From: Nitrospirota bacterium
GTDB lineage: Bacteria > Nitrospirota > Thermodesulfovibrionia > Thermodesulfovibrionales > Dissulfurispiraceae
Assembly: GCA_004321915.1 (NCBI GenBank)
Contig: SCQE01000048.1
Location: forward strand, 1 to 46,794
Length of the DNA stretch: 46,794 bases
Direction of reading: 5' to 3'
Part shown: in pieces, positions 2,636 through 18,585 of the stretch
Layout: each line of letters opens with the position of its first letter
Position numbering within the stretch: the first letter of the stretch is position 1
Translations under genes and position numbers: made by a program
Notes under the pieces: generated by a model
Told to the model about the DNA's origin: nothing
What the model saw: only the letters and a program-made list of their open reading frames with translations
Database searches by the model: none

Positions 2636-3016
2636 ATGCCGAAGAAAATCCTCATAGCTGACGATAACGACAGTAACCGGCGTTTGCTGCACGACATACT
2701 CGCCTATTATGGATACGAAGTGCTCGATGCCGAGAACGGCGAGGCATGCATCTCGGCGGCGGTGGAAAAAAGCCCCGATCTCATCCTACTCGACATCCAG
2801 ATGCCTGTAATGGACGGTTTTACTACTGCGAGAAGATTGAGGGAAGACAACCGGACGTGCGCGATCAAGCTTATCGCACAAACCTCTTTTGCCATGAAAG
2901 GGGACAGCGAAAAGGCCAGAGAGGCGGGATTTGACGCCTATATATCAAAGCCCATAAACATCGATGAACTGCTTGCGCTGGTCGAGGTAGTCTTAAAGGA
3001 GGGGCCGTATGCCTGA
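2636..3016 (+). CDS. Single-domain response regulator (CheY-like)
   Basis: A 126-aa stand-alone receiver domain. The acidic pocket is D9/D10, the phospho-acceptor is Asp53 in [13 protein letters not shown], and the conserved Thr/Lys lie in QTSFAMKGD and ISKPIN. There is no output domain. The ATG begins one base after the kinase stop codon, and the gene overlaps the next gene by 8 bp, so the three are translationally coupled. It probably acts as a phosphate shuttle or sink between the heme-motif kinase and the HD-GYP regulator downstream. Confidence 0.93.
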
Positions 3017-4529
3017 GACTGAAAGTTCCGTGATACTCTGTGTTGACGACGAGCCGAACAATCTTGCGCTCCTTGGGGCGCTCCTCGCAACCGAGGGATA
3101 CGGTGTGCTTAAGGCCGGGAACGGCATGGAGGCATTGGAGCAGCTGGGGACGCAAAGGGTGGACCTCGTGCTGCTCGATGTAATGATGCCTGTAATGGAC
3201 GGCTTTGAGGTGTGCCGGAAGATAAAGGACGACGAAAGGCTGAGGCATATACCGGTTGTCTTCATTACGGCGCTTAACGAGAAAGAGGACAGGATCGAAG
3301 GCATCAAGGCGGGCGCCGAGGAGTTCCTTTTAAAGCCGTTCGACCATGCCGAAGTGCTGGCGCGGGTCAAAATGCTGCTAAAGGTAAAGGCGCTGAATGA
3401 AAGGCTGAAAAGCGCCTACGACAGCATCATAGACATAAACAGTTACGGCGAACAGACGATAAAGACCTTCGACAAGATGAATTTCAACCTTCAGCGCAAA
3501 GTTGCAGACATAGTCAGCCGCATAATGCACCGGAAGGAGGGCGCGTCCGACAGGCCCCGGAACGTGATCGTCAGGATGCTCAACGAAAAGGGGAAGCATG
3601 AATGGTATCGCTATGCCTATACCTTCGGACAGATCGAAAAGGCGGGCATCGATCTCGACATAAGCATGAACATTTCCGAACAGGATGAGTCCAGCACCTT
3701 TTTCTGCAACGGGTTGGATGTTGTTCGGCGTTTCGGTCCGCTGTCGAAGATATTAGAGGAGTCTCTGAATATGCGGGCAGAGAATATGGTCTATTATCTG
3801 AGCGAGCCCTTATGCGTCTTTGGCGTCAATTATGGAAGGGATGTCACTCCGTATGATGCGGCGGTGCTGAACAGTCTGGTCATGCATACCCTGTTTTTGA
3901 GGTCCCTCGCCTCGGACATCAAAGAGATCGAAGACGCCTTCGAATATACCGTGCATGCCCTCGCGAGGGCGGCCGAAGCGAACGACGAAGACACCGGCAA
4001 TCATATAGTGCGCGTAGGCCATTATTGCGCAATTATAGCAAAGATACTGGAATTGGATGAGGAATTTATCGATAAGATAAGGCTTCAGGCCCAGATGCAT
4101 GATGTCGGTAAAATACATGTGCACCCTGATATCCTCAAAAAGCCGGGCAAACTCACGGATGATGAGTGGAAAGAGATGAGGAAACATCCTGCGTACGGCA
4201 CGAAGATCCTCGGAGAACACAGGAGGCTTTCAATGGCTAAAATAATAGCCTTCACCCACCATGAACGCTGGGACGGCAGCGGCTATCCGCAGGGTCTTAA
4301 AGGCGAAAGCATCCCGATCGAGGGAAGGATCATAAGCATAGCCGACCAGTACGATGCGCTCAGGAACGCGCGGGTTTACAAACCGGCCTTCGATCATGAT
4401 ACAAGTTATCGCATCATTACAGAGGGCGACGGCAGGTCCGTACCGTCTCACTTTGATCCGCAGATACTGAAGGCCTTTACAAACAATGCGGCAATGTTTG
4501 AAGAAGTGTATGAAAGGCTTAAAGGATAG
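3009..4529 (+). CDS. Response regulator with HD-GYP c-di-GMP phosphodiesterase domain
   Basis: A 506-aa protein. The receiver domain (residues ~8-122) has phospho-acceptor Asp57 in [12 protein letters not shown] middle region (~135-300) has no family I can name; it may be a divergent GAF-like sensor. The HD-GYP domain (~310-500) has catalytic HD at H364-D365 ([10 protein letters not shown]) and the GYP motif at 425-427 ([11 protein letters not shown]), so hydrolysis of cyclic di-GMP is expected. The RBS AAGGAGGGG lies inside the upstream receiver gene. This is the likely output of the kinase-CheY-HD-GYP cassette, linking a heme-sensed signal to c-di-GMP level. Confidence 0.92.
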
Positions 4530-4721
4530 CAGTCCGGGGCGGTGGGGTTTTGCTCTATGGATTTAACGGAATATTCATTGATTAGATAATGCGGACAGGG
4601 CAGGCTGAAACCGGGTTATGGCACGCCACCCCGAAATGGCTGAAAGGCAATCGTAATAGAAGGGAATAACAGTCTCATTATAGACTACACAACACTGCGG
4701 GAATGACGGAAGTCGTTTGCG

Positions 4722-6776
4722 TTATTCTTCCTCCCCAAAGATTCTGTCGTAGTATTCGGGATAGATTTTCTTTGCGCATTCGGGACATATGGAGTGAGTA
4801 AACTCGGCTTCAGAATGCTTCCTGATATATACCTCTATCTGATTCCAATAGCCTTTGTCATCGCGGATTTTCTTACAAGAGGAGCAGATAGGAAGAAGGC
4901 CGCTTAATGTCTTGACCTCATCAACTGCACTCTTTAATTCATGTATGAGCTTTTCACGCTCCTGTTCGAGTCTTTTGCGTTCGGTAATGTCCTTTGCGAT
5001 ATGAACAAACTGAACGATTTTTCCCGACCCATCTTTTACTGGATAGGCGCTCACCTCTACAAAAAGCCTCTCCCCGTTTTTGTCATAGTGAATATGTTCC
5101 TCAATAGTCGGGTTGCCCGTCTCCATGAGTTTGCATACAGGGCATGGGTCTTCCGGAGGCTCGCAGGGACATTCCCTTGCATGAGTTGCTTTGTAGCAAT
5201 AGTTTCCGACAAGTTCCTTTATTGAAAGGCCGGTTTGCTTTAATGAGGCCTTGTTGGCCCACACAACCTTAAAGTCTTTCGATAGCAGGAGAATGCTTTC
5301 TGTAATGCCATCCGTTATGTCCTCAAGCATCTGTTTGGCTGAAACCATATCCTTCTCTGCCTGCTTGCGTTCGGTAATGTCCTCTATTATCCCCATAATC
5401 GCTGCTACATTGCCTTTTTCATCATGCATCGGCGCAGTCGAGAGCGCTACCGGCACCATAGAGCCGTCCTTTCTTTTTCGCACAGTCTCCCATGATTTGA
5501 TACTCTCGCCCCTTAAGGCTTTTTGCCGGAAATCCGTATGTTCTTCTTTTTTATTGTCAGGCACAATCGGCAGCGGACGGCCGAGGACTTCCTCTTTTGT
5601 CCAGCCAAACGTCTTTTCAGCGGCAGGGTTCCATAAGAGCAGGTTTCCATCAGTATCAATGATCACGATAGATAGGGGTGATCCATTTATAAGCGCTTGA
5701 AGCCTCTCATTCAGGGTCCTGAGCGAATTTTCGTTTAGTTTGCGAACATATGCAAAAGTCAGTAATGCAAGCAAAAGCAGTGTCGCCAGTATCAGGATAA
5801 TATAATAATTTCTCTCATATTCGGTGATTGTTGTGTCTTTCTCAAACGAAATTATGTACGCCCCAGTTGTCCCGTCAAAGTTTTTTACAGGCAGAAAAGA
5901 TACCACATAATGCCCGCTGCCCACTTTGCCGGCTTTAGCATATATTGCGAAGATCTTTTCATTTTTGATGTCTTCTGAAATCTTATCTTTTGTGCGACCC
6001 GCAATTGTCTGGAGTATCTCTTTCTGAAGATGCCTTCTCTTGTCCGCATCTGTTCCCATCTCCGATATTTCATACATATACTCATTGCTTATGTCGCTTT
6101 TCATGTAACGCGTTTGTTCATCTTTGAATATTTTTTTCAGCACACTGTCCTGTTTGACTATAAGCAAATAATCGGACGGGAACAGCTTTTCCATTTCTTT
6201 CCTCAAGCCGTTAAATGAGATGGCCGTTTCTACGCTTCCAATATGAAGGTCTTTATAAGCAAGCGGAAAAATAAACCTGAACCCGCTGTAAATCCGCCCT
6301 TGTTCAAAGCCTTCTATGTATCTCTTTTCAGTATTGACAAGCTTTACCGAGTATCTGAATCCGGACAGATTGTCTCCAAACTCATCGGGTTTATGCACCC
6401 TTAAAAAGCTTGTGCCGTCGGGGAGGTGAAACTGAAGCAGCTTAAAATCTTCTTGTTTTAATTTCTGGAAAATGGGATTAGTTTTCCGGAAAAGCCTGCC
6501 GCGTATGAGTTTTCTTTTCGTCTCATCTGCAGGATACGCATCCTTGAAAATTTCTATAATGTCGGGTCTGCTTATGGCCTCACTGAACAATGTTCGGGAC
6601 AGAAGGCTGTAAGAGTTAAAGACCGCCCGGTATTCTGTCCGGAGCCGTTCAGCGCTTTCAGTTAGGTGCTCTCTCTTGAGACTGCTGAAATAGCGGTCCA
6701 GCAGGGAAAAAGACAAAAGTTCAAGCATTATGAATACCGCAATGAAATATTTAAGGTCAAACAGTTTTTTCAGCAT
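4722..6776 (-). CDS. Membrane PAS sensor protein with Cys-rich C-terminal tail, no kinase domain
   Basis: A 684-aa protein. It has TM1 at ~9-27, a long periplasmic double-Cache-like domain (~30-320; includes the DGTSFLRVHKPDEFGD pattern of the two-component 'double sensory' family), and TM2 at ~325-343. Two PAS domains follow (ALINGSPLSIVIIDTDGNLL and ITDGITESILLLSKDFKVVW), each ending in a PAC motif DITERK. The C-terminus is a ~60-residue domain with CSSC and CPEC motifs (ICSSCKKIRDDKGYW ... SICPECAKKIYPEY), known as a recurrent tail on PAS proteins. No HisKA, GGDEF or methyl-accepting domain is present, so the output is unknown; the four Cys could bind zinc. The gene stands alone, convergent to the HD-GYP gene. 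Confidence 0.85.
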   Translation of the reverse strand: MLKKLFDLKYFIAVFIMLELLSFSLLDRYFSSLKREHLTESAERLRTEYRAVFNSYSLLSRTLFSEAISRPDIIEIFKDAYPADETKRKLIRGRLFRKTNPIFQKLKQEDFKLLQFHLPDGTSFLRVHKPDEFGDNLSGFRYSVKLVNTEKRYIEGFEQGRIYSGFRFIFPLAYKDLHIGSVETAISFNGLRKEMEKLFPSDYLLIVKQDSVLKKIFKDEQTRYMKSDISNEYMYEISEMGTDADKRRHLQKEILQTIAGRTKDKISEDIKNEKIFAIYAKAGKVGSGHYVVSFLPVKNFDGTTGAYIISFEKDTTITEYERNYYIILILATLLLLALLTFAYVRKLNENSLRTLNERLQALINGSPLSIVIIDTDGNLLLWNPAAEKTFGWTKEEVLGRPLPIVPDNKKEEHTDFRQKALRGESIKSWETVRKRKDGSMVPVALSTAPMHDEKGNVAAIMGIIEDITERKQAEKDMVSAKQMLEDITDGITESILLLSKDFKVVWANKASLKQTGLSIKELVGNYCYKATHARECPCEPPEDPCPVCKLMETGNPTIEEHIHYDKNGERLFVEVSAYPVKDGSGKIVQFVHIAKDITERKRLEQEREKLIHELKSAVDEVKTLSGLLPICSSCKKIRDDKGYWNQIEVYIRKHSEAEFTHSICPECAKKIYPEYYDRIFGEEE

Positions 6777-7271: not shown

Positions 7272-7703
7272 ATGTACAAGAAGAAGTTCGTATTTGCGTT
7301 TGTGTCAGTCGTACTGACTGTTGTAGCCGCTACGGCAGGGAACCACGAGCATAAGGCTGTTGCTTCCGGCGCCAACCCGCTTGTCGAAGAGATGATTATA
7401 CTCGACGGCGTGTTCCGCGAGGTGGTCTCTGCGGTTGCTCTAGGGGACAGCGAAAGGGTGCATAAGGCCCTGCACTCTATGCATGGGACAATGGAAAAGA
7501 CCCATGAAGGAGTTCATCACGGAACGGTGAAGATACCGAAAAACAGCCACCGCGTTAAAGAGTTTGTGAAGATGGACAAACAGTTCCATCACGAACTGGA
7601 GGCGCTTGCGCATGCGGCACATAAGAACGACACAAAGAAGATGACCGCATTGACGCAGAAGCTCCTTGCAGGCTGCGTATCGTGCCACAAGACATTCAGG
7701 TAA
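7272..7703 (+). CDS. Periplasmic cytochrome c'-like monoheme protein
   Basis: A 143-aa protein with a Sec signal peptide (residues 1-~22, ending ATAG). The helical body is rich in His, and there is a single C-terminal heme motif CVSCH (LAGCVSCHKTFR) right at the end of the chain. A helical protein with the CxxCH at the C-terminus is the layout of cytochrome c'/c-556. Expected location is the periplasm; role in electron transfer or gas binding is not fixed by sequence. RBS AGGAGGGG lies just before the ATG. Unusually many His (HEHK, HHGTVK, FHHELEALAHAAHK) might add metal binding. Confidence 0.8.
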   Translation: MYKKKFVFAFVSVVLTVVAATAGNHEHKAVASGANPLVEEMIILDGVFREVVSAVALGDSERVHKALHSMHGTMEKTHEGVHHGTVKIPKNSHRVKEFVKMDKQFHHELEALAHAAHKNDTKKMTALTQKLLAGCVSCHKTFR

Positions 7704-7710
7704 GTCTTTG

Positions 7711-7737
7711 GGCTTTTATTTCGGCCCTTTAAAAGCC
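7711..7737. promoter_or_regulatory. 8-bp inverted repeat between the cytochrome gene and lolA
   Basis: GGCTTTTA (7711-7718) and TAAAAGCC (7730-7737) flank an 11-bp loop. It could be a weak terminator of the upstream gene or an operator overlapping the lolA promoter, whose TATAAT sits at 7739-7744. Confidence 0.4.
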
Positions 7738-7749
7738 GTATAATAAGGC

Positions 7750-8382
7750 ATGACAAAATATATCGTTAGTTTATTGCTGACTGCATGTTCGTTCTTTGTT
7801 CTTTGCTTCACTGCTTCAGCCTCAGAGCCGGACGAAACCATAAACAGGATACAGAAAGCTTACGCAGGCATAAGCGATGCAAAAGGCGGCTTTGTGCAGA
7901 AGAGCTTCCTGAAGGATTTCAAGAGGACCGACACTTACAAAGGCCTCTTCTATCTTAAGGCGAAGAAGATGAAGTGGGAATATCACGGCAAGAATCCGCA
8001 GACAGTTTTCATAAACAGCGACGAAATAATAATCTACCAGAAGAACGAGAAGCAGGCCTTAAGAGGCAGGTTTGACAAGGCCTCTTACGGGCAGGCGCCG
8101 ATAGCCCTGCTGGCCGGGTTCGGGGATATAAGGAAGGAGTTCGAGGTTTCCCAATCAGGCGAACGCAGGCTTTTGCTCAAACCGAAAAAGCCTATGGGCG
8201 CCATCGCTTTTGTGGAGCTTCTGGTCGGCGACGGGGAGTTCCCCATCGAAGGGCTTGTTATAACCGACAAACACTCAAACAAAACAGATATAAGGCTTTA
8301 CGACATTACCATGAACTCCGGCATAAAAGATAAGACTTTTGACTTTTCTCCGGCTGAAGGCGTAAACATAATAGACAGGTAG
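7750..8382 (+). CDS. lolA: Outer-membrane lipoprotein carrier protein LolA
   Basis: A 210-aa protein with a signal peptide (1-~24, ..TASA). Mature-region features match LolA: an AYAGISDAKGGFVQKSF start, LRGRF.., a central KPMGAIAFVELLV strand, and the C-terminal F-F-P-x-GVxxI signature (TFDFSPAEGVNIIDR). It carries lipoproteins through the periplasm to the outer membrane, so the organism is diderm. The ATG is 5 bp beyond a TATAAT (7739-7744) and has no properly spaced Shine-Dalgarno, so a transcript from that promoter would be leaderless. It can also be read through from the upstream cytochrome gene. Confidence 0.88.
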   Translation: MTKYIVSLLLTACSFFVLCFTASASEPDETINRIQKAYAGISDAKGGFVQKSFLKDFKRTDTYKGLFYLKAKKMKWEYHGKNPQTVFINSDEIIIYQKNEKQALRGRFDKASYGQAPIALLAGFGDIRKEFEVSQSGERRLLLKPKKPMGAIAFVELLVGDGEFPIEGLVITDKHSNKTDIRLYDITMNSGIKDKTFDFSPAEGVNIIDR

Positions 8383-8414
8383 CGGACATAATAAAGCGAC
8401 ATCGGGAGGGGAAG

Positions 8415-9686
8415 ATGAAGCGTTCTTGGATGATACTCGGCATACTGATTTTATGCTCCTGCATACCTCAAAAACATCCGGATACGCCTGTAGAGCCTGC
8501 GAAGCTGTTGTTCATAGACGGGGTCGTTCAGTCTGTCTCGGGCAGCGAAGCGACAATCTCGCTGAAGCTGCCTGATACCCAGAGATCCCCTGACAATCCC
8601 ATCAGCGAACTTGCGCAGCAGGTTGTGAACAAATGCCTCTTCATAGAAGGCATCAATACCGAGGTCAATAATATAGCCGGCACGGTGAAAGAGGCGCGCG
8701 GCGGAAATGTGGTCATAACGTTTGCCGCGCCTGCGGTGTTTGCCGCGAATTCTTCGGTCAAGCTGAAGATACCCAAGAAGACGCTCGCCATAGTCGATTT
8801 TGAGGTGATAAGAGGACGTGAGAAAGCTGCCGGCAGGGTCACGCTCGAAAGCCTGACCTCCTCGCTGATAGATTCAGGTCAGTTCACGATAGTCGAAAGG
8901 TCCAAACTCAAATCGGTGATCAGCGAATTACAGCTCAGCCTGAGCGGTCTGACCAAAGAGACGCCCGAAAAGATCATGGGCAATCTGATAACGGCCGACC
9001 TGATCCTTACCGGAACTCTTGCCGAGATAAGCGGCGTGTGGGACATAAACCTAAGGCTTGTGAATGTGAGGACCGGCGAAGCTGTGGCTGCGGTGACCAT
9101 GAAGACCCCTTTATTTAAGCCGGCCGAGCTGCGCGACGCAGGCGGCCTTAACGAAGATTTTGAGGTAAGCACGGCCAATTCGGCTTGGGGCATCGGGTAC
9201 AAAGGAAAAGGCGTGTTCGTAGTCAAGATGGACAAGACCCAAGGCGCAGACGGATCGAAACAATCCATGCGCATGGATGTTGATTTTACAGGCTCTCCAA
9301 AGGATATGCTTGCACGGATAGATAACATGAAAAAACGGGACCTCTCCATGTATACAGGCATAGAGTTTTATGTAAAGGCCGATCCGCAGGTGACAGGCCA
9401 TTTGAGGATTCTCACTTCCGACAGGGATGATCCCAATACTATGGATGCGTGGGTCGCGCTGTTTGAGACCGAAGCTGAATGGAAGCTCGTGAGGGTTTCG
9501 TTTGACGACCTCTTTGTGGGCCGGGGATGGGTCAAAGGGGGCGCGTCAAAGTTTGGCGCAAAGGCAGGGAAGCAGGTAATAGACCTAAGCAGGGTGGAGG
9601 CGTTCAGTATCGGAGCGTATTCGGAAAACAATCCTCCGGTCAAGGGCTCGATGTGGATAGACAAGGTGCGGTTTTATACTGATTGA
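8415..9686 (+). CDS. Lipoprotein with CsgG/FlgO-like domain and C-terminal carbohydrate-binding-like domain
   Basis: A 423-aa protein. The lipoprotein signal is MKRSWMILGILILCSC (lipobox near Cys15/17). Residues ~115-235 form a CsgG/FlgO-type module (LAIVDFEVIRG.., FTIVERSKLKSVISELQL, ADLILTGTLAEISG, NVRTGEAVAAV), known in outer-membrane assembly lipoproteins. Residues ~245-423 look like a CBM11/CIA30 jelly-roll domain (LNEDFEV..SAWGIG, MRMDVDF, YTGIEFYVKAD, WKLVRVSFDDLF, WIDKVRFY). Sits 32 bp after lolA and may share its transcript. The last 13 bp overlap the end of hypF on the other strand. The two-domain combination suggests a surface or periplasmic assembly role; substrate unknown. Confidence 0.75.
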   Translation: MKRSWMILGILILCSCIPQKHPDTPVEPAKLLFIDGVVQSVSGSEATISLKLPDTQRSPDNPISELAQQVVNKCLFIEGINTEVNNIAGTVKEARGGNVVITFAAPAVFAANSSVKLKIPKKTLAIVDFEVIRGREKAAGRVTLESLTSSLIDSGQFTIVERSKLKSVISELQLSLSGLTKETPEKIMGNLITADLILTGTLAEISGVWDINLRLVNVRTGEAVAAVTMKTPLFKPAELRDAGGLNEDFEVSTANSAWGIGYKGKGVFVVKMDKTQGADGSKQSMRMDVDFTGSPKDMLARIDNMKKRDLSMYTGIEFYVKADPQVTGHLRILTSDRDDPNTMDAWVALFETEAEWKLVRVSFDDLFVGRGWVKGGASKFGAKAGKQVIDLSRVEAFSIGAYSENNPPVKGSMWIDKVRFYTD

Positions 9687-12208
9687 CGCTTTAGACGCTC
9701 TCGCAGGATATAAGCCTGTCCGAGCGATATGCCTGCATCGTTGCAGGGGACCTTCCGGTTGGTATGGATATGAAACCCCGATTTTGTGAGAAGCTCTAAT
9801 ACCCTTTTTAATAAATATCCGTTTTGAAAAACTCCGCCGCTCAGGGCAATAGTTTTAATCCCGGATTCGAGCGAAATCTTTTCTACAGTTTGCTTTACAG
9901 CCGCTGCGACCGCATTGTGAAATTTTGTGGAGATAATCTCTTGGGCGATATTGCCGGCAACATCGCTTATTACACCCATTATAGTTTTTGAAAAGTCTAT
10001 CACCGCAGGAGCTTTGCCGATTATATCGAAATCATAGGCATCATACTTATTTTCCATCACAAGGTTTTCGAGCGCTATCGCAGCTTCTCCCTCAAAGGTA
10101 TTGCGCTCGCATACACCGGCAAGCGCAGCAGCAGCGTCAAACAGCCTTCCAGCGCCGGAAGAAAGCGGCGAAAACTGTTTGTTCGCCGAGAGCTTTAAAA
10201 CATTCTCGATGTTGTTCTCGCCGTATTTGCGGATAAAACCTATGTCTTCAAGCTTTTGCCGCGCACCGTCTTTATACGAATACGCAGCATAGCTGACTGC
10301 CGTCCTCCAGCACTCCCTGATAGCGCTCTCGCCCCCCGGAAGCGGAATGTATTTAAAATGCGCTTCCCTCGCAAAACCCTGCAGGTCGCACAACATAAAC
10401 TCCCCGCCCCAAAGGTTGCTGTCTGTGCCGTATCCCGTTCCGTCGAGCGCAACTCCGATAACCTTCTCCTTTATTCCGTTCTCCGCCATCACCGAAGCGA
10501 TGTGCGCATAGTGGTGCTGGATTCCGTAGCAAGACAGTCCATTTTTTTCTTGACTGCCGACCGCCGACTGTTGACTGTTTGTTGTTGACCGCTGACTGCT
10601 GACTGCTGACTGTTGACTGTTTCTTGTTGACCGCTGACTGCTGACTGCTGACTGTTGACTGTTTGTTGTTGACTGCCGACTGTTCTCCATCGCCCACCTT
10701 GTCGAAAGGTATCCGGGGTGGAGATCGTGGGCTATGGCAGAAGGGGTTGCCCTATAGACTGATTTCAGGTTTTCGAGTGTCTCTTCGAAGAACCTGACCG
10801 TCTCCATGTTTTCCATGTCGCCGATATGCTGGCTCACTATTGCGTAGCTGCCTTTAGTCAGAGTGAAGGTGTTTTTAAGGTCTGCGCCGCAGGCTAGCAC
10901 CTCCGGACCGTCTTCAGTCAGGGCTATAGGTTCGGGCACAAAGCCGCGCGCGCGCCGGACAAATGACATAGATGACTGCTGACTGTTGACTGTCTGTTTC
11001 TGACTTCTGACTTCTGACTTCCCACTTATTTTTACCACCGAATCATCCACCCGCATAAATATGTCCCTGTTGTGGAACAGGAATGCATCCGCAATCCCCG
11101 AAAGCCTTTCAAGGGCCTCGTTGTTATCTGCCACAAGCGGTTCTTCGGACAGATTGCCGCTCGTCATTACAAGGGCCGAAAAGTGAGGAGTAGGAAGTGG
11201 GATGTGAGAAGTGAGCGGGCAATGAAATAAAAGATAATGCAGCGGCGTGTACGGCAGCATAAAACCGATGTGTTTATTGTTCGGAGCAATTTTGTCAGGC
11301 AGTTTTTTCCATTCTGACGGCTGACTGCCGACTGCCGACTGCTTTTTTAATAGAACTATAGGCCTGCGTCTGTCTTGCAGAAGTCCTTCTTCTTGCGCAG
11401 AGACTTCGCAGAATTTTTTTATTACCTGAATATCCGGAGACATAAGCGCAAAAGGCTTATTGCTTTTGCGCTTTTTTTCTCTTAGTCTGAGCACGGCATT
11501 TTCATTAAGCGCATCGCAGGCCAGATGAAAGCCGCCGAGCCCTTTTATTGCAAGAATTTTCCCCTCTTTTAATAAATCAATCGCCTTTATTATTGAATCC
11601 TGACTGTCGACTGCCGACTGTTGACTGTTGACTGTTTGTTGCCGACTGTTTGACAGGCTTATCTGCGGTCCGCACTCAGGGCAGGCATTGGGCTGGGCAT
11701 GGAACCTTCTGTCATCGGGGTTATTGTACTCTGCCTCGCATTTTGGGCACATCCTAAATGAAGACATGGTCGTGTTCGGCCTGTCATATGGGACCCTTTT
11801 TGTTATCGAATAGCGCGGCCCGCAGTTGGTGCAGTTTATGAACGGATAGAGATGCCGTCTGTCTTCAGGGTCCATCATTTCTTTCAGGCAGTCTTCGCAT
11901 ACGGTAACATCCGGGGACACATGGGTAAAGCTCTCGCTGTCCGAGCTTTCTATTATGGTGAAATCTTTGTATCCGATATGCGGAAGTTCTGCGGTCTGAA
12001 TAGAGTCTATGCGCGCGAGTGGAGGGGGGGCTTTCTTGAGCGCTTGTAAAAAGGCCCCGGCGTCGGCCCCTTCCAATTCGATGCTAACGCCTTGCGCGGT
12101 ATTACTTACATATCCCTTGAGTCCGAGTTCTTTTGCGAGGGTATAAACGAAGGGCCTGAAACCGACACCCTGAACTGTGCCTGAAATTTTTATGCTAAGA
12201 CGGTTCAT
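9674..12208 (-). CDS. hypF: Carbamoyltransferase HypF, NiFe-hydrogenase maturation (with repeat inserts)
   Basis: An 844-aa protein, longer than the usual ~750-770. Order: N-terminal acylphosphatase domain (SGTVQGVGFRPFVY), zinc-finger region (CEDC, CTNC, CPKC, CPEC), YrdC-like domain (KAIDLLKEGKILAIKGLGGFH), and Kae1/TobZ-like C-terminal domain (HHYAHIASVMAENG, ALDGTGYGTD, GGVFQNGYLL, CNDAGISLGQ). It converts carbamoyl phosphate into the cyanide ligand donor for the NiFe centre, delivering it to HypE. No other hyp or hydrogenase gene is in the window. The extra length comes from five low-complexity inserts (residues ~185-203, 289-298, 331-343, 394-412, 508-553), rich in Ser/Gln/Asn, encoded by a dispersed DNA repeat. 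Confidence 0.93.
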   Translation of the reverse strand: MNRLSIKISGTVQGVGFRPFVYTLAKELGLKGYVSNTAQGVSIELEGADAGAFLQALKKAPPPLARIDSIQTAELPHIGYKDFTIIESSDSESFTHVSPDVTVCEDCLKEMMDPEDRRHLYPFINCTNCGPRYSITKRVPYDRPNTTMSSFRMCPKCEAEYNNPDDRRFHAQPNACPECGPQISLSNSRQQTVNSQQSAVDSQDSIIKAIDLLKEGKILAIKGLGGFHLACDALNENAVLRLREKKRKSNKPFALMSPDIQVIKKFCEVSAQEEGLLQDRRRPIVLLKKQSAVGSQPSEWKKLPDKIAPNNKHIGFMLPYTPLHYLLFHCPLTSHIPLPTPHFSALVMTSGNLSEEPLVADNNEALERLSGIADAFLFHNRDIFMRVDDSVVKISGKSEVRSQKQTVNSQQSSMSFVRRARGFVPEPIALTEDGPEVLACGADLKNTFTLTKGSYAIVSQHIGDMENMETVRFFEETLENLKSVYRATPSAIAHDLHPGYLSTRWAMENSRQSTTNSQQSAVSSQRSTRNSQQSAVSSQRSTTNSQQSAVGSQEKNGLSCYGIQHHYAHIASVMAENGIKEKVIGVALDGTGYGTDSNLWGGEFMLCDLQGFAREAHFKYIPLPGGESAIRECWRTAVSYAAYSYKDGARQKLEDIGFIRKYGENNIENVLKLSANKQFSPLSSGAGRLFDAAAALAGVCERNTFEGEAAIALENLVMENKYDAYDFDIIGKAPAVIDFSKTIMGVISDVAGNIAQEIISTKFHNAVAAAVKQTVEKISLESGIKTIALSGGVFQNGYLLKRVLELLTKSGFHIHTNRKVPCNDAGISLGQAYILRERLKRQSV
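10550..10686. repeat. Short-unit repeat insert 5 in hypF (42-bp periodic)
   Basis: This ~137-bp stretch is made of GACTG-type heptamers/hexamers with a higher-order 42-bp period (two full units and partials) on the + strand. In the hypF frame it reads as 14-residue repeats NSQQSAVSSQRSTR. It is the largest of the five inserts and lies just before the KNGLSCYGIQHHYAH motif. Confidence 0.85.
10972..11027. repeat. Short-unit repeat insert 4 in hypF
   Basis: TGACTGCTGACTGTTGACTG followed by a run of TTCTGAC units. In frame it encodes SEVRSQKQTVNSQQSS between VVKI and FVRRARGFVPEPI, two conserved HypF segments. Confidence 0.8.
11180..11217. repeat. Short-unit repeat insert 3 in hypF (variant AAGTG(A/G)GA unit)
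   Basis: AAGTGAGGAGTAGGAAGTGG then GATGTGAGAAGTGAGC, encoding LTSHIPLPTPHFS in frame between TPLHYLLFH and ALVMTSGNLSEEP. The unit differs from the GACTG family but has the same tandem short-period character. Confidence 0.6.
11314..11342. repeat. Short-unit repeat insert 2 in hypF
   Basis: Four GACTGCC/GACGGCT-type units, reading as KQSAVGSQPS in frame between PIVLLK and EWKKLPDKIAPNN. Confidence 0.7.
11600..11655. repeat. Short-unit repeat insert 1 in hypF
   Basis: Tandem GACTGTC/GACTGCC/GACTGTT units, reading as SNSRQQTVNSQQSAVDSQD in frame between the zinc-finger region (CPECGPQISL) and the YrdC-like domain (SIIKAIDLL). Confidence 0.8.
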
Positions 12209-12431
12209 TATTTATATGGTGCGGGCAGAGTCCGATCACATTAAATTATACTGCAAATTCAACTGCGGGTTCTATTTAGGTGGGGTGCTACGAATAGGAA
12301 AAGAGTTACTTGCAAGAAAGAAAATAAAATTATTCAAGCTGTTGTGTAAATATCGAAACTATAGTGTTGACATTGCTAGTTATTTTTGTTAGTATTTATA
12401 TAAATATCGATTTTATTTGGGAGCTATATAT

Positions 12432-12650
12432 ATGGAAGAAGAAAACAGAAATGAGCGTTTTAAAAGGATAGCAGCCAAAAGGACCAATGATATTCTTGAA
12501 AAAATCAGAATATTGGGAAACTGCTCTAATAAGAGCTCTTATGATTATTCGGAAGATGAGGTTAATAAAATTTTTTCGGAGATTGATAAGCAATTGAAGT
12601 TGACTAAGGCTAAATTTCTGGCTGGGAAAAGGGAGAGATTTAAGCTGTGA
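12432..12650 (+). CDS. Small charged protein, first gene of the AT-rich four-gene operon
   Basis: A 72-aa protein starting at ATG 12432, chosen because GGGAG (12419-12423) is 8 bp upstream; a TTG five codons earlier overlaps that site and is rejected. Composition is helical and charged: NERFKRIAAKRTNDILEKIRI, then GNCSNKSSYDYSEDEVNKIF, then EIDKQLKLTKAKF. I recall similar small proteins (..KRTNxxLxxIRLIGNLSNRSxYxYSExDVxKIF..) in defence-type gene neighbourhoods, but have no function for them. Its stop overlaps the next start as GTGA. Base composition is far more AT-rich than hypF. Confidence 0.7.
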   Translation: MEEENRNERFKRIAAKRTNDILEKIRILGNCSNKSSYDYSEDEVNKIFSEIDKQLKLTKAKFLAGKRERFKL

Positions 12651-13270
12651 AAAACAAAATGTTCGTGAAAGAAAAGTTGTTAGTAGTTATCTATCATATG
12701 TCAACAAAACAGAAAACCCCCTTAAAATATGAAGATGTATATGTAAACTCGTTTAAAAAATATCCTAATGATTTTCAATTGCGGGGATATCCAGCTTATC
12801 CAGATACAGAACTTATGTCAAAAAAAATATATGACCTTCGCAAGAATGGTGCATTACAAGTACATAGAAAATTCATAACGATTACAGAGAAAGGGAAAAC
12901 AGCGGCTGAAAAAATAATACAGTCCAGAACTAAGTATCCCGATAAAGATACGACATCGAAAACAATAGGACGGGACATTATAAACCAGATTGACAGAATA
13001 AAAAAAACCGAAGTATTTCAATTGTTTGCTGATGATAAAAAAGACCAAATAGTTGATACTGATTTCTTTGCTTATTTAGGCACCACTGTACGGACAGAGC
13101 GCACAGATTTTAAAGCACGAATTAAAACAATTCAAGATGTTATAGAAATTATTAAAGCAAACGATGAGTATAAGTTAATTGTTAATTTGCATAGTTATTT
13201 GTTTGACAAATTTAAAGACCTAATAAAAACTAAATTATCAATTGGGTACCCTAGGAGGGGACATGAGTGA
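12647..13270 (+). CDS. Winged-helix-like protein of the AT-rich operon
   Basis: A 207-aa protein with a GTG start in the overlap GTGA with the 72-aa gene. The N-terminal ~90 residues (KEKLLVVIYHM, LKYEDVYVNSFKKYPNDFQL, SKKIYDLRKNGALQV, FITITEKGKTAAEKI) read as a winged helix-turn-helix with a terminal beta wing. The C-terminal ~100 residues are helical without a family I recognise. It overlaps the next gene by 8 bp. Probably the DNA-binding or accessory subunit of the GHKL/alpha-CTD system; this role is inferred from co-location only. Confidence 0.65.
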   Translation: MKNKMFVKEKLLVVIYHMSTKQKTPLKYEDVYVNSFKKYPNDFQLRGYPAYPDTELMSKKIYDLRKNGALQVHRKFITITEKGKTAAEKIIQSRTKYPDKDTTSKTIGRDIINQIDRIKKTEVFQLFADDKKDQIVDTDFFAYLGTTVRTERTDFKARIKTIQDVIEIIKANDEYKLIVNLHSYLFDKFKDLIKTKLSIGYPRRGHE

Positions 13271-15188
13271 GTCATTAAAAATCATAGAAGAGAAAAATAT
13301 TTTCGATGATAATTTCCTTGATGTTACTGGAAATGAATTTAGATTTAGCCACGAGAAAGGACTCTCTGAATGGCTGAAAAACTCTGCAGACGCTTATCTT
13401 AGGGCTGAGAGGGATGATGAGGATAGTTTTATTGTTTTTAGATTTAGAGACAAAGATACTGTTGTATTTGAATGTATAGATTTTATTGGCATGGCTTCAG
13501 AGGATATAGATAAAGCACTAAAGCGTTGGGGCGATCCTGAAGCAGCTAAGCGCGGAACCGGCAAAAGGGTATTTGGCGGACATGGAAATGGTGGCAAATT
13601 CTACATGAGGCAGATGTTTAAACAATCGCATTTTATAACATATAGATTAGGCAAGCTTAATGTATTTGGCTTTAATGAAAATCGCCGATATGGGTTTGCA
13701 GATGGCTTTAAGGACAAGAATGTTACTCCAGAAGAAGCAATGAAATTTGCAGAAATAGATGATATGGATTTTCCACCAACCATACGGAAAAATATTTTAA
13801 ATGGAAATTTTGGATTTACTGTAGCAAGAGGGGGTCATCCAGATAAAATAGTTAGGAAAAAATTTAATCTACATAAACTTTGTGATAGATTTAAAAATTA
13901 TCCCCAAGCAAGAATTATACTAAAATACAAACCTGTTTCAATTGTTTATAACGATAAAACAGTCATTTCACGTCTTTTTCCAGAAGAAATCTCGCCTTTG
14001 CTAGAATTTCAGACCCCATTAGAAATTCCAATACCTCTGACACTTGTATGGAATGACGATGGGGATAAGGAAACTATTTCATTTGCTAATGATAAATTTC
14101 CTGCGGGCAAGCTCGTTCTTTATACATCAAATGAGCCGCTCTCAAGAAATAGCCGTCTTGGTGATTTGAATCGCATTGATATTATTGGCGAAATAGGTGT
14201 AATAGCTTCATATCATATGCAGGAATTAGGCTACATTAATCGCTTGTCCTCAGCAGAATTTATTTATGGTGAGTGTAAATGTCCGTTGCTTGAGGATCAA
14301 GATGATGATTGTGTGAAAAACGATAGAAGCACTCTTGTCGAAAACCATAAAACAAAAACACTACGAAAGTGGATAGGGGAACAAATAGATAAACTCGCTG
14401 AGAAGATAGAGGAAAAAGAAAAGAAAGAGATACGAGCAAAAAATATTGAAATGCTATCAGAAATAAATAAAATTCTCAACGATTGGAAAAATAAATTCAT
14501 GTCAAGAGTGATGAGAGAAATACTTGGAGGTGGGGGAGAAGGGATTGGTGCGGGTTTTGGAACGGGGGGCAGCAGCGGTGGTGCCGGGGGTGAAAGAAAT
14601 AAAAGAAAGAATGGGGATATCGGAAGTGGTGAAGGAAAAAGACAAGGTGGAGGAAGTTCGGAATTTAAACCTAAACAAACATTTCCTAAGGTGCTTCTTT
14701 CTGGCATAGATGAAGATCCTCTTGACCCCGCTGGCAATAAATTGGAGCTTTTAGATAGACAAGAACCAGTTTATCAGCGACCTCAAGATGTTCCTGTTGG
14801 TATATACTGGATCAATACATCGAGAAAACTTGCACAGTACATCATTGATAAGCACGGCGTAAAATCAATGAAGTGGCGTGATTATCATCTGCAGAGAATA
14901 ATAGATGTTATTTGCAAAGAGGCATTATATAAATTAGAGAAGCAAGATCCCGAAAATTTTAATGCTGCAAGGGTTGATGGAGAGATTATTAATAAACTTG
15001 TGGGCAAAGCGCATGACAGCGCAGTTGAATCGCTTGGTGGTTACATATTTGAGGAGGACTATAAAACCCCAAGGGAAGAATTGCTTGAAAAAATATCTGG
15101 GCTTAGAAACCTTGATTCTGAAGAGCAAAAGATACTTTTAAGAGAGATAGAAGATGCAATTGCTTTTGTTAAGGGCAAAGGAGAATAA
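13263..15188 (+). CDS. GHKL-fold ATPase (MORC/Hsp90-like), AT-rich operon
   Basis: A 641-aa protein starting at ATG 13263, fixed by RBS GGAGGGG at 13254-13260. The GHKL ATP-binding fold is shown by motif I SEWLKNSADA (catalytic Glu36, Mg-binding Asn40), motif II DFIGM (Asp73, Gly76) and the glycine lid GTGKRVFGGHGNGGK (residues 98-112). A middle domain follows (~190-400), then a Gly/Ser-rich linker (~419-466), then a helical C-terminal domain (~470-641) without a known match. There is no His-kinase dimerisation domain and no MutL endonuclease motif, so it fits the MORC-like group of ATP-driven clamp proteins, several of which occur in restriction or antiphage loci. The next gene begins 2 nt after the stop. 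Confidence 0.8.
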   Translation: MSESLKIIEEKNIFDDNFLDVTGNEFRFSHEKGLSEWLKNSADAYLRAERDDEDSFIVFRFRDKDTVVFECIDFIGMASEDIDKALKRWGDPEAAKRGTGKRVFGGHGNGGKFYMRQMFKQSHFITYRLGKLNVFGFNENRRYGFADGFKDKNVTPEEAMKFAEIDDMDFPPTIRKNILNGNFGFTVARGGHPDKIVRKKFNLHKLCDRFKNYPQARIILKYKPVSIVYNDKTVISRLFPEEISPLLEFQTPLEIPIPLTLVWNDDGDKETISFANDKFPAGKLVLYTSNEPLSRNSRLGDLNRIDIIGEIGVIASYHMQELGYINRLSSAEFIYGECKCPLLEDQDDDCVKNDRSTLVENHKTKTLRKWIGEQIDKLAEKIEEKEKKEIRAKNIEMLSEINKILNDWKNKFMSRVMREILGGGGEGIGAGFGTGGSSGGAGGERNKRKNGDIGSGEGKRQGGGSSEFKPKQTFPKVLLSGIDEDPLDPAGNKLELLDRQEPVYQRPQDVPVGIYWINTSRKLAQYIIDKHGVKSMKWRDYHLQRIIDVICKEALYKLEKQDPENFNAARVDGEIINKLVGKAHDSAVESLGGYIFEEDYKTPREELLEKISGLRNLDSEEQKILLREIEDAIAFVKGKGE

Positions 15189-15190
15189 TC

Positions 15191-17146
15191 TTGCAACTTA
15201 ATTTGCCGACAATGCAAAAGAAAGAAAACGAATTACATAACAGTATTCTTGAAGTTCCAATAGAGGAACTAAATCTTTCTGTGCGGGCATATAATGTTCT
15301 TAAAGGGAACGGGCTTGATACTATAAAAGATGTAATTAGCTTTGGATTAAATAGAATAATTAAGTTGCGAAGCGCTGGCATAAAAAGTGTTAAAGCAATA
15401 TCGGATGCCATTGCATTTGCCATGACTGAGGATTTTAGTACGCATTCCCATAAAGAACAAGAAGTTGAAAAAGCTTTACTCTCTTTTGAAGAAGTTGCAA
15501 AAAAAACTTTAGAGAAGAAGCTACTTAATGCCTCACTAAAAGATTTAAATCTTTCTTTAAGAACATTTAATGCACTAAAAAAGATCGGGATAGAAACAGT
15601 TCATGACATTTTGAATTATGGCTTAGACAATATAGGCAAAAAAACTAGTAGCGAAATTAAGAGTGCTATTTCTATGCTTGAAAATCAGCAACAAAGTATT
15701 GTTGAAAATATTACATTTCGTGAGGCAGTGGATAATATTTTTGCCAACGTGAGTCAGAAAAATCTGCCTGTAATTGAGATGCGATATGGGTATGCTGATG
15801 GGAAGCGCAAGACTCTTGAGGAAATAGGAAACACAAAGGGATTGACCAGAGAAAGAATTCGACAAATTATACTGAAAGAAATTAGGCGGATAACTCATTA
15901 TCGGGCGAGAAACTCATTAGAATTAATTATAGAAAATATTGAACGATTACTTTTTAAATATAAAGGAATTATAGGCATAAAAGATATATTTAATGATAAG
16001 TATTTCAGTGCTGCGTCTCGTAATCATGTGATATTTGTATTAAATCTTTTAGCAGACATTTATGAAGAACATTATAGATTTATTGATAAGTATTTTTTTA
16101 CAAGCTTAAACGATAATGAAATCAAAAACCTTCATGGCATTATGCGAGAAGCTGCGTTAAAGTGCAAATTCCCAATAGAAGAAAAGACTTTCATAAACAA
16201 TATAATCTCAACAGTTGGTTCTATATCAGAATATTATTTAAGTTACTATCTGCTGAATAAAGAACGAATTCAAATGTCAAAAGGGATGATACTATCTCCT
16301 GGAGGGCTTTCTATGCCGCAGCGCATTAAGCTACTTCTATCGGATGTTGATCGTCCAATGCATTTCTCAGAAATTGCTGAACTTTATAAAAAACATTTTG
16401 GAGAAGAAAATTGCAAAGCTTCCGACATTGAACATGCAATACATGCAAGAATTGGCGATTCGAAAGATTTTATTATCATAGACCCGGGGACTTTTTTATT
16501 AAAAAGCAAATTCAAACTACCTAATAACATTGACGAAATTATTGAGAAGTCAGGAGAAATATTGCGAGAACTTAATAGTATTTCTGATACAAAATTTCTT
16601 ATCGAAAAATTGAAACAGCAAAAGATAAATTTAGGTTCCATCAATGCTTATTCGTTAAAGCCTATTTTGCTTGAACGAGGAGGTTTTGTATCATATCACA
16701 AATTTGAAATAGGATTAGAAGAATATATAAATAAATATGATAGGAAACCTCTGAACGAGTTGATTTTTGAATTGTTTGAATCGCTTAGAAGACCATTACA
16801 TGTCAAAACAATATGGAAAGAAATATTAAAGCAAAGGGGATTCCCTGAATATGCTGTATCACAAAAATTAGCAGATGATCCAAGATTTATTAGAATCGCA
16901 CCGGCAACTTACACTATTGCATCTAATATTGAACAATATGAAGAAAAGCGCATTATAATTACTAATTTTGCAAAAGAATGGGTTCAACTAAAAGGAAGTG
17001 GTATCTCCGCTTTTTTTGTAAATGAAGTGTTAAAAGCATCAGATAAAATTAAAGATTTATCATTAGGAATAGTAGAGCATGTTCTTGCTACAAGCGCTGA
17101 ATTTGTTAAATTACCAGATGGATTTTATAATTTAAAGACACAGTAA
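15191..17146 (+). CDS. Alpha-CTD x2 / sigma region 4 / HARE-HTH fusion protein
   Basis: A 651-aa protein. The start is TTG 15191, chosen for AAAGGAG at 15177-15183; an ATG seven codons later lacks such a site. Two RNAP alpha-CTD-like helix-hairpin-helix modules lie at ~20-75 (IEELNLSVRAYNVLKGNGL) and ~112-165 (LKDLNLSLRTFNALKKIGI). A sigma70 region 4-like HTH is at ~195-240 (RKTLEEIGNTKGLTRERIRQ). After a helical middle come HARE-HTH-type winged helices at ~375-445 (RPMHFSEIAELYKKHFG) and ~520-580 (RRPLHVKTIWKEILKQRGF). It lacks sigma region 2, so it is not a working sigma factor. Expected to bind DNA and perhaps engage RNA polymerase or imitate it. Partner: the GHKL ATPase upstream. Confidence 0.75.
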   Translation: MQLNLPTMQKKENELHNSILEVPIEELNLSVRAYNVLKGNGLDTIKDVISFGLNRIIKLRSAGIKSVKAISDAIAFAMTEDFSTHSHKEQEVEKALLSFEEVAKKTLEKKLLNASLKDLNLSLRTFNALKKIGIETVHDILNYGLDNIGKKTSSEIKSAISMLENQQQSIVENITFREAVDNIFANVSQKNLPVIEMRYGYADGKRKTLEEIGNTKGLTRERIRQIILKEIRRITHYRARNSLELIIENIERLLFKYKGIIGIKDIFNDKYFSAASRNHVIFVLNLLADIYEEHYRFIDKYFFTSLNDNEIKNLHGIMREAALKCKFPIEEKTFINNIISTVGSISEYYLSYYLLNKERIQMSKGMILSPGGLSMPQRIKLLLSDVDRPMHFSEIAELYKKHFGEENCKASDIEHAIHARIGDSKDFIIIDPGTFLLKSKFKLPNNIDEIIEKSGEILRELNSISDTKFLIEKLKQQKINLGSINAYSLKPILLERGGFVSYHKFEIGLEEYINKYDRKPLNELIFELFESLRRPLHVKTIWKEILKQRGFPEYAVSQKLADDPRFIRIAPATYTIASNIEQYEEKRIIITNFAKEWVQLKGSGISAFFVNEVLKASDKIKDLSLGIVEHVLATSAEFVKLPDGFYNLKTQ

Positions 17147-17154
17147 AATTAAAG

Positions 17155-17910
17155 ATGACTTCTATAAACAACAAAATTCTCCAAAAGATTGATTCCCTCA
17201 AATCGGCCCTTGACCGCTATCGTCCTTTTCCTGACCATGTTGTGAGCCAGCTGAAAGACTATTACCGCATCGGCCTGACATACTCATCGAATGCCATTGA
17301 AGGAAATACGCTCAGCGAATCAGAGACAAAGGTGGTTATTGAAGACGGCATAACCATAGGCGGTAAATCCTTGAGGGAGCATCATGAAGCTTTGGGGCAT
17401 GCAAAAGCTTATGACCACATCTATTCGCTGCTCGACAAACCCGTATCCGAAGAAAATATTTTATCCCTGCATAAGATTTTTTTTCAGCATATAGACAGCG
17501 AGAATGCCGGCAGGTACAGGCAAAGGAATGTTGTCATCACTGGAACGGATTACCTGCCGCCCGATCATCAAAAAATTCCGATGCTAATGACAGAGCATGT
17601 CGAGAATCTGAATACAAAGCGTGGGGACATACATTTACTGGAACATACGATAAATCTACATGCCGAATTTGAGTCAATACACCCTTTTACGGACGGCAAC
17701 GGAAGAATAGGGAGACTTTTATTGACTGTTATGAGTTTGAAGAACGGCTACTGTCCAGTGGTTATTCCGCCGATAAGGCGGGTTGAATATATAACCGCAC
17801 TGCAGAAAACAAACAAAGGGAATACAGCTCCCCTCACTGCCTTAATCTTGAGCGTTATCTATGAAGAGATGAAATCCTTTAAGAAGGTCATTGAGACTCT
17901 ATCTAATTAG
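17155..17910 (+). CDS. Fic-family adenylyltransferase (AMPylase)
   Basis: A 251-aa protein. The Fic core motif HPFTDGNGR is at residues 176-184 (catalytic His176), followed by IGRLLL. The N-terminal inhibitory helix motif S-x-x-x-E-G lies at S45-E49-G50 in TYSSNAIEGN, so it belongs to the self-inhibited class with the inhibitor inside the protein. It transfers AMP (or another nucleotide part) to target hydroxyls; target unknown. It starts 8 bp after the alpha-CTD fusion gene and could be co-transcribed. Its GC content is clearly higher than that of the four AT-rich genes, so it probably has a separate origin. It converges with the DtxR gene (9-bp gap). Confidence 0.88.
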   Translation: MTSINNKILQKIDSLKSALDRYRPFPDHVVSQLKDYYRIGLTYSSNAIEGNTLSESETKVVIEDGITIGGKSLREHHEALGHAKAYDHIYSLLDKPVSEENILSLHKIFFQHIDSENAGRYRQRNVVITGTDYLPPDHQKIPMLMTEHVENLNTKRGDIHLLEHTINLHAEFESIHPFTDGNGRIGRLLLTVMSLKNGYCPVVIPPIRRVEYITALQKTNKGNTAPLTALILSVIYEEMKSFKKVIETLSN

Positions 17911-17919
17911 ATTACGTCT

Positions 17920-18585
17920 TTAGACCACATTCTTTACGAATATCTCTCTGCCGAGTTCCGGGTCTATGGCGATAGTCGTCTCATCTATCTGCAAAACTAT
18001 CGAGGGCCTTTTCTGTATAAGTTTAATGATCGTTCCGGGAATGATACCTATCGAGCTCAGCCTGCTTATCCTCGATGCGTCGGAAGGCGTGATGAAAACT
18101 ATCCTGCCTTTTCTGCTTACCTCGAAGTCGGTCAAACGCATGACAACGGGTTTGACGTCCATCTGGTATTTTTTGCAGCACTCGCCCCTCGGGATATGCT
18201 TTCCGTGGGGGCATGTGGTCGGGTGTCCGAGAAAGGTGCAGACGCTGTCGGTGAGTTCTTCGCTCAGGATATGTTCCATTTTACAGGCGTCTTCTTCGAC
18301 AATGTCGTGGGACAGGTCGAAAACATCGGTAAAAAGCCGCTCTGCAAGCCTATGCCTGCGGATGAGTTTTTTTGCGAGCTCTCCGCCCTTGTCCGTAAGC
18401 TGTATCGAATCGGCGTCGACCGATGCGAGGCCTTCTTTTGTAAGCTCGTCTATCAATGATTTTACGTCCGCATCCTCGGAGCTTAAATGAAAGCGTTTAA
18501 GGTCTTTGTGCCCTTCTTCTTTAAAGAGCCAGAGGAGTTCGAGCGCTTCGTCCACCCTTTCGTACGGTTTGCAATAATCGGACAT
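17920..18585 (-). CDS. DtxR/MntR-family metal-dependent repressor
   Basis: A 221-aa protein. It has an N-terminal winged helix that is weakly conserved, the dimerisation/metal domain (RHRLAERLFTDVF, ACKMEHILSEELTDSV with the C-x-x-E-H metal ligands, FLGHPTTCPHGKHIP), and a C-terminal FeoA/SH3-like domain (~150-221). It should repress metal-uptake genes when Fe(II) or Mn(II) binds. An unusual Cys pair follows the CPHG motif (GECCKKYQM). Placed 21 bp after rnhB on the same strand, so it probably ends the rpsP-rnhB transcript. The HTH is divergent, so DNA target cannot be predicted. Confidence 0.85.
   Translation of the reverse strand: MSDYCKPYERVDEALELLWLFKEEGHKDLKRFHLSSEDADVKSLIDELTKEGLASVDADSIQLTDKGGELAKKLIRRHRLAERLFTDVFDLSHDIVEEDACKMEHILSEELTDSVCTFLGHPTTCPHGKHIPRGECCKKYQMDVKPVVMRLTDFEVSRKGRIVFITPSDASRISRLSSIGIIPGTIIKLIQKRPSIVLQIDETTIAIDPELGREIFVKNVV

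Follow-up and report, generated by a model that had tools for sequence, protein, structure and literature searches.

A four-gene cassette encoding a MORC-like GHKL ATPase and a protein with RNA polymerase alpha-CTD and sigma region 4 domains in Nitrospirota and other bacteria

The window, a stretch of 46,794 nucleotides from contig SCQE01000048.1 of a Nitrospirota bacterium, contains a cassette of four genes encoding, in order, a small protein, a protein of about 200 amino acids (P0003), a GHKL ATPase (P0002) and P0001, which we refer to as the reader. The three upstream ORFs, at 12432 (72 aa), 12647 (about 200 aa) and 13263 (641 aa), overlap at their ends, and a gap of only 2 nt separates the stop codon of the GHKL gene from the start of P0001. 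The P0001 ORF is real; its start codon is TTG and an AGGAG is found approximately 7 nt 5' of the start. The features of the window, and those of related loci discussed below, are listed in Table 1.

Table 1 Features of the window and of related loci
Location	Feature	Coordinates	Strand	Basis
Window	Promoter with flanking repeats, possible operator	12342..12410	+	
Window	Putative operon promoter, TTGACA-N17-TAGTAT with TG	12367-12395	+	sequence match
Window	Small protein, 72 aa, first cassette gene	12432..12650	+	motif ERFKR.A..RTN...LGNCSN..Y.Y.E.E..KIF.E
Window	Conserved ~200-aa protein P0003, putative winged HTH	12647..13270	+	present directly upstream of GHKL
Window	MORC-like GHKL ATPase P0002, 641 aa from ATG 13263	13263..15188	+	motifs, model, Foldseek, VIA
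Window	P0001 (reader), 651 aa, alpha-CTD x2 / sigma4 / HARE-HTH x2	15191..17146	+	ORF; profile, PDB and structure matches
Window	Alpha-CTD 1, residues 19-75; R32/N35/G63/K65/S66 kept	15245..15415	+	Pfam, structure, contact residues
Window	Alpha-CTD 2, residues 111-166; R124/N127/G149/K151/T152/E155 kept	15521..15688	+	Pfam, contact residues
Window	Sigma region 4, residues 174-238	15710..15904	+	Pfam, PDB search, contact residues
Window	-35 recognition helix TRERIRQI of sigma4	15845-15868	+	
Window	HARE-HTH 1, residues about 368-441, RNAP delta-subunit-like	16292..16513	+	Pfam, structure
Window	HARE-HTH 2, residues about 519-578	16745..16924	+	Pfam, structure
Window	Fic-domain protein, 251 aa, canonical HPFTDGNGRIGR	17155..17910	+	Pfam, PADLOC
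Window	Stretch absent at the corresponding site of same-genus G230	12277..17169	.	G230 alignment 12276 -> 17170
L044 (Nitrospirota)	Reader: alpha-CTD x2 + sigma4 + HARE			
L046 (Daviesbacteria)	Reader, single chain beside GHKL ATPase: GyrA_C propeller + HHH + alpha-CTD x2 + sigma4	2970-5435		
L052	Reader: alpha-CTD + DnaA_C + sigma4	10919-12694		
L056	Reader: DnaA_C + sigma4	3830-4939		
L048	Reader: DnaA_C + sigma4	7603-8643		
L058, L059	Readers: sigma4 + HARE			
L054	Reader: sigma4 + weak HNH			
L055	Reader: sigma4 + zinc-finger-like repeats			sequence
L045, L053	Readers: alpha-CTD + sigma4			
L045	Order: ATPase, C5-methyltransferase, alpha-CTD/sigma4 protein, Vsr			
L047	Order: ATPase, C5-methyltransferase, Vsr			
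L055	C5-methyltransferase upstream			
L048	N4/N6-methyltransferase and IceA-like nuclease upstream			
L051	Apparent N4/N6-type methyltransferase		opposite	sequence only

Three Pfam families were matched in P0001, all above their curated cut-offs: RNA_pol_A_CTD (E 1.1e-23, two stretches, best at residues 11-73), Sigma70_r4 (E 1e-7, residues 194-227), and HARE-HTH (E 2.7e-9, two stretches, best at 523-575). A sequence search of the PDB matched residues 174-244 to sigma region 4 of RpoD/SigA (best 7e-12) and also returned the alpha-CTD, at 5e-8. The structure model of P0001 has a pLDDT of 66 and a pTM of 0.35 and is trustworthy domain by domain only; at that level, residues 16-79 align with the alpha-CTD 1z3e (Z 11.0, 64 aligned, 1.4 Å), the sigma4 part with known sigma4 structures (Z 9-10), and residues 369-441 with the HARE domain of the RNAP delta subunit 2m4k (Z 9.1, 73 aligned, 2.3 Å). 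HARE-HTH, alpha-CTD and sigma4 domains are therefore found within a single chain, and the Pfam and NCBIfam matches to it cover only region 4 of sigma, with none to regions 1, 2 or 3, and only the CTD of alpha, with none to the N-terminal assembly domain. A first-pass annotation made from the letters alone had proposed tandem alpha-CTDs followed by a sigma region 4 helix-turn-helix, with no sigma core and no melting region 2. The profile and structure comparisons it called for agree with that description, which had missed the two HARE-HTH domains of the C-terminal half; the two further cassette genes, and the DnaA and gyrase modules, restriction-modification (R-M) neighborhoods and mobility described below, also lay outside it.

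Residues of E. coli sigma70 and alpha that are known to contact DNA were located in P0001. R584, E585, R588 and Q589 of sigma70 are retained as R220, E221, R224 and Q225, as are the counterparts of K593 and R596. The alpha residues R265, N268, G296 and K298 are retained in both CTDs, as R32, N35, G63 and K65 in the first and R124, N127, G149 and K151 in the second. Because these residues are retained, the domain assignment is not a matter of chance, and neither the alpha-CTD nor the sigma4 reading head has the look of a relic; both appear functional. In the model, residues 170-295 also superpose on chimeras of sigma4 and the flap, such as 8d5v (Z 9.9, 95 of 97, 2.4 Å), which provides a lead, from a model with pTM 0.35, that P0001 may cap its own sigma4 through a likeness to the beta-flap tip.

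The P0002 ATPase itself gave no match in Pfam, NCBIfam or PADLOC, and HATPase_c_3 matches weakly to 7 of 16 members of its family (best E 0.0022). The family alignment contains an invariant KNS.D.Y (N-box) and GGHGNGGKFYMR, together with a conserved D..GM, and the N-box, D..G and glycine-rich motifs of GHKL ATPases are all present in P0002. The best Foldseek matches of the P0002 model (pLDDT 81) are MORC2 and MORC3; residues 11-386 align with MORC3 with a VIA Z of 20.0 (304 aligned, 3.7 Å), with which Hsp90 ties at Z 19.5. An S5-type transducer follows the GHKL domain in the MORC3 alignment and in the model. Co-evolution of an Ig-like GHKL insert with DnaA_C/zinc readers was considered and rejected: the five inserts form one clade, and common descent therefore explains their co-occurrence with those readers.

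An ATPase-guided scan of the genomes of 85,000 species yielded 17 loci, from the Nitrospirota, CPR bacteria, Elusimicrobiota, Verrucomicrobiota, Planctomycetota, Myxococcota, Ignavibacteriota and Chloroflexota, and the cassette thus reaches across at least eight bacterial groups of phylum level, CPR bacteria among them. A protein with the sigma4 recognition helix is encoded on the same strand within 4 kb of the ATPase in 13 of the 17 loci; two of the other four (L049 and L057) are truncated where their contigs end. The outer flanks of the loci contain no sigma4 motif in 84.5 kb. Since the loci were found via the ATPase, the sigma4 linkage is no search artefact. Using P0001 as the query, tblastn matches in the phylum, phages and plasmids were mostly ordinary sigma factors matching over region 4 only, and were rejected; a single-sequence scan of genome contigs with P0001 found no relatives because its patterns are poorly conserved. 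No relative of the P0002 ATPase was detected in virus collections, and a plasmid search gave one distant match of 26% identity.

Two roles had been suggested for P0001 in the first-pass annotation: a decoy or block at promoters, or an anchor for the GHKL ATPase on transcribed DNA. Recurrence of the gene pair in the 13 of 17 independently found GHKL loci favors the anchor over the decoy, and no specific evidence for the latter was encountered, so that the modules, the absence of melting and the GHKL link stand from that interpretation and the decoy or block does not. A protein that occupied UP and -35 elements in competition with host or invader RNAP, switching transcription off with no central role for the ATPase, would be expected to keep its -35 and UP contact residues intact and to lack a melting region, as P0001 does. 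However, the tight linkage to the GHKL ATPase across many phyla runs counter to such a role, DnaA_C readers with few or no promoter modules besides sigma4 fit it poorly, and blocking -35 sites throughout the host would be toxic; we regard it as very unlikely.

The reading that we prefer, in which P0001 is the DNA-recognition subunit of the ATPase, must also be weighed against regulation of the cassette itself. Two 15-nt direct repeats, 12342-12356 and 12396-12410 (TTGTGTAAATATCGA / TTATATAAATATCGA), bracket the putative cassette promoter and may constitute an operator. The promoter-like match by itself does not exceed what chance would give over this region (3 found versus 2.5 expected), so the argument is carried by its position and the repeats. 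The reader could be a controller-like regulator acting at its own (or an R-M) promoter, leaving the GHKL ATPase as the actual machine; its modules are those of promoter readers, and this operon has a putative promoter flanked by repeats. Against this, the match within chance weakens the case, the ~200-aa protein is the likelier regulator, and the readers are large, multi-domain proteins, some with HNH-like or GyrA-propeller domains, which would be unusual in a regulator. We consider a purely regulatory reader unlikely. The gene for the ~200-aa protein, whose winged-HTH label comes solely from weak PADLOC WH matches (E 0.006), is directly upstream of GHKL in 14 of the 17 loci, and two of the remaining three run off the end of a contig. 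The small 72-aa protein gave no significant family match in Pfam, NCBIfam or PADLOC. Similar ORFs of 73-96 aa directly precede the ~200-aa gene in L044, L046, L048, L049, L052, L055 and L056, and a small ORF with the LGNCSN motif is found ahead of that gene in at least eight loci, the window included.

Around a fixed core, the reader modules vary among alpha-CTD, HARE-HTH, DnaA domain IV, a GyrA C-terminal propeller and an HNH-like zinc domain (Table 1). When 15 third proteins are aligned, the sole invariant positions are the initiator M and R220; E221, R222 and Q225 are almost invariant, and RER..Q of the recognition helix is the best-conserved stretch. The DnaA-box residues R399, D433, H434, T435 and T436 are kept in the DnaA_C domains of four proteins. 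Across the reader modules, most DNA-contact residues are retained. With sigma4 and alpha-CTD on one side and DnaA_C on the other, the reader family thus uses promoter- and origin-reading modules. It is possible, if doubtful, that the sensor imitates the host transcription and replication machinery (sigma4, alpha-CTD, DnaA domain IV, gyrase CTD), and that the clamp is loaded on invader promoters and origins; if so, escape by mutation would cost the invader its use of the host machinery. In L052, L056 and L048, which are from CPR and unclassified genomes, DnaA domain IV is fused to sigma4 and zinc-ribbon-like repeats. A trypsin-like protease gene lies straight after the sigma4 reader at L048:8760-9686.

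The GC content of the cassette is 35%, compared with 49% in the flanks and chromosome. In G230, a genome of the same genus, hypF directly adjoins the Fic gene and all four cassette genes are missing, a difference equally compatible with insertion here or loss there. Given the low GC and this cassette-free site within the genus, the cassette is horizontally mobile. In G354, from another family of the same order, the surroundings of the cassette differ, and a Fic gene again comes after it. The Fic gene was considered as a core member of the cassette and rejected, being present without it in G230 (beside hypF), G116 and G304 and not a neighbor in other phyla; it is linked to the cassette twice in Nitrospirota, yet separable. 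The FeoA-type iron-dependent repressor beside Fic (window 17920-18585) has no counterpart at this position in G230, so that the two genomes differ locally in a second respect. In G026 (L035 and L040) the cassette lies over two contigs, with frame breaks inside the ATPase and reader genes, and stand-alone nucleotidyltransferase-like genes are found near the split cassette. G251 and G219 contain reader fragments and no detectable ATPase. The G251 fragment (L034:7102-8409) is an orphan C-terminal part that lacks alpha-CTDs and sigma4; its identity to the G354 reader is 73%.

Between the window and G354, identity is 77% for the ATPase, 74% for Fic, 59% for the ~200-aa protein and 37% for the reader. 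The readers form two groups, window/G026 (48-64%) and G354/G251 (73%), a grouping that is not mirrored in the GHKL identities, the three ATPases being 73-79% identical. The reader is the fastest-diverging part of the cassette, as expected for a specificity subunit.

DNA methyltransferases accompany the cassette in five of the 17 loci, L045, L047, L055, L048 and L051 (the last from sequence alone), and no nuclease is seen at most of the 17. Among the neighbors of the window cassette no R-M gene (methyltransferase, nuclease, helicase) was recognized, and the R-M neighbors elsewhere could be ordinary defence-island company. The lack of an adjoining nuclease here, and the DnaA and gyrase modules, suggestive of replication and topology, would fit a housekeeping chromosome or replication factor, i.e., a MORC/Hsp90/MutL-like ATPase with a DNA adaptor and no part in conflict. 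Such a role is quite improbable given the sporadic distribution of the GHKL gene (with the window's genome counted, it occurs in 2 of 295 phylum genomes and 2 of 230 class genomes), the low GC, absence from the same site within the genus, the broken copies in G026, the orphan fragments in G251 and G219, and the R-M neighbors at other loci.

Several known systems share parts of the cassette. HARE-HTH proteins combining RNAP alpha and sigma features were reportedly described by Aravind and Iyer in 2012, and P0001 likewise has HARE-HTH, alpha-CTD and sigma4 in one chain; neither the GHKL/small-protein cassette nor the DnaA_C and GyrA_C variants are known to be described there. In MZA, a sigma4-bearing protein (MzaA) is encoded with defence genes, and MzaB is a MutL-type GHKL protein. 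P0001 119-248 matches the MzaA C-terminus (E 1.3e-12), whereas the full-length MzaA match reaches 47.4 bits against a cut-off of 800, and PADLOC and profile searches found no MzaB-E homologues among the cassette proteins. In PADLOC, the product of the downstream Fic gene matches PDC-S04 and SoFic, although in other phyla Fic does not belong to the cassette. PglW of BREX type 2 has an alpha-CTD-like domain followed by HTH modules (PMC12839542), and the PADLOC PglW model matches the alpha-CTD/sigma4 stretch of P0001, which however lacks a kinase or NERD domain and has no BREX partners. The closest parallel in kind is the MORC/paraMORC GHKL ATPases, which sit in R-M operons (PMC2292703) and share with the cassette the GHKL and transducer fold, C5 methylase and Vsr neighbors at some loci, and a sporadic, mobile distribution. 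They differ in the partner, here a reader with sigma4, whereas sigma and RNAP terms are absent from that paper, and in that the window cassette shows no SFII helicase. We file the cassette with this kind of conflict system. PADLOC has no model for the ATPase and does not list the cassette; the cassette, its phylum reach and the DnaA/gyrase variants are absent from the literature searched, outside which the 2012 HARE-HTH and 2020 MZA papers fall.

The cassette looks like an undescribed DNA-defence system of restriction type, whose targets may be located by modules borrowed from promoter and origin recognition. With modest confidence, we favor a conflict system of this type in which P0001 is the DNA-recognition subunit and directs a MORC-like ATPase clamp to DNA resembling promoters. 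The sigma4 and alpha-CTDs of the reader would read promoter-type DNA, i.e., a -35-like box with an adjacent A-tract, and its HARE-HTH wings would probably sense whether that DNA is modified, HARE-HTH domains having been proposed as modified-base sensors (PMC10853773, PMC11037411). By contacting the ATPase, the reader would place the GHKL dimer on that DNA to act as a MORC/paraMORC-type clamp or looping ATPase; the DNA might then be silenced, or cleaved with resident or associated nucleases in a restriction-type manner. At loci with a methyltransferase, methylation might protect self DNA; the window cassette lacks such a gene.

In eukaryotes, ATPases of the MORC type silence DNA, and to our knowledge it is not understood how their bacterial relatives choose DNA. 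The cassette adds an unlisted candidate defence system whose range covers at least eight phylum-level groups and takes in CPR bacteria. By pairing the ATPase with a separate reader composed of modules of known specificity (-35, UP, DnaA box), it makes target choice directly testable.
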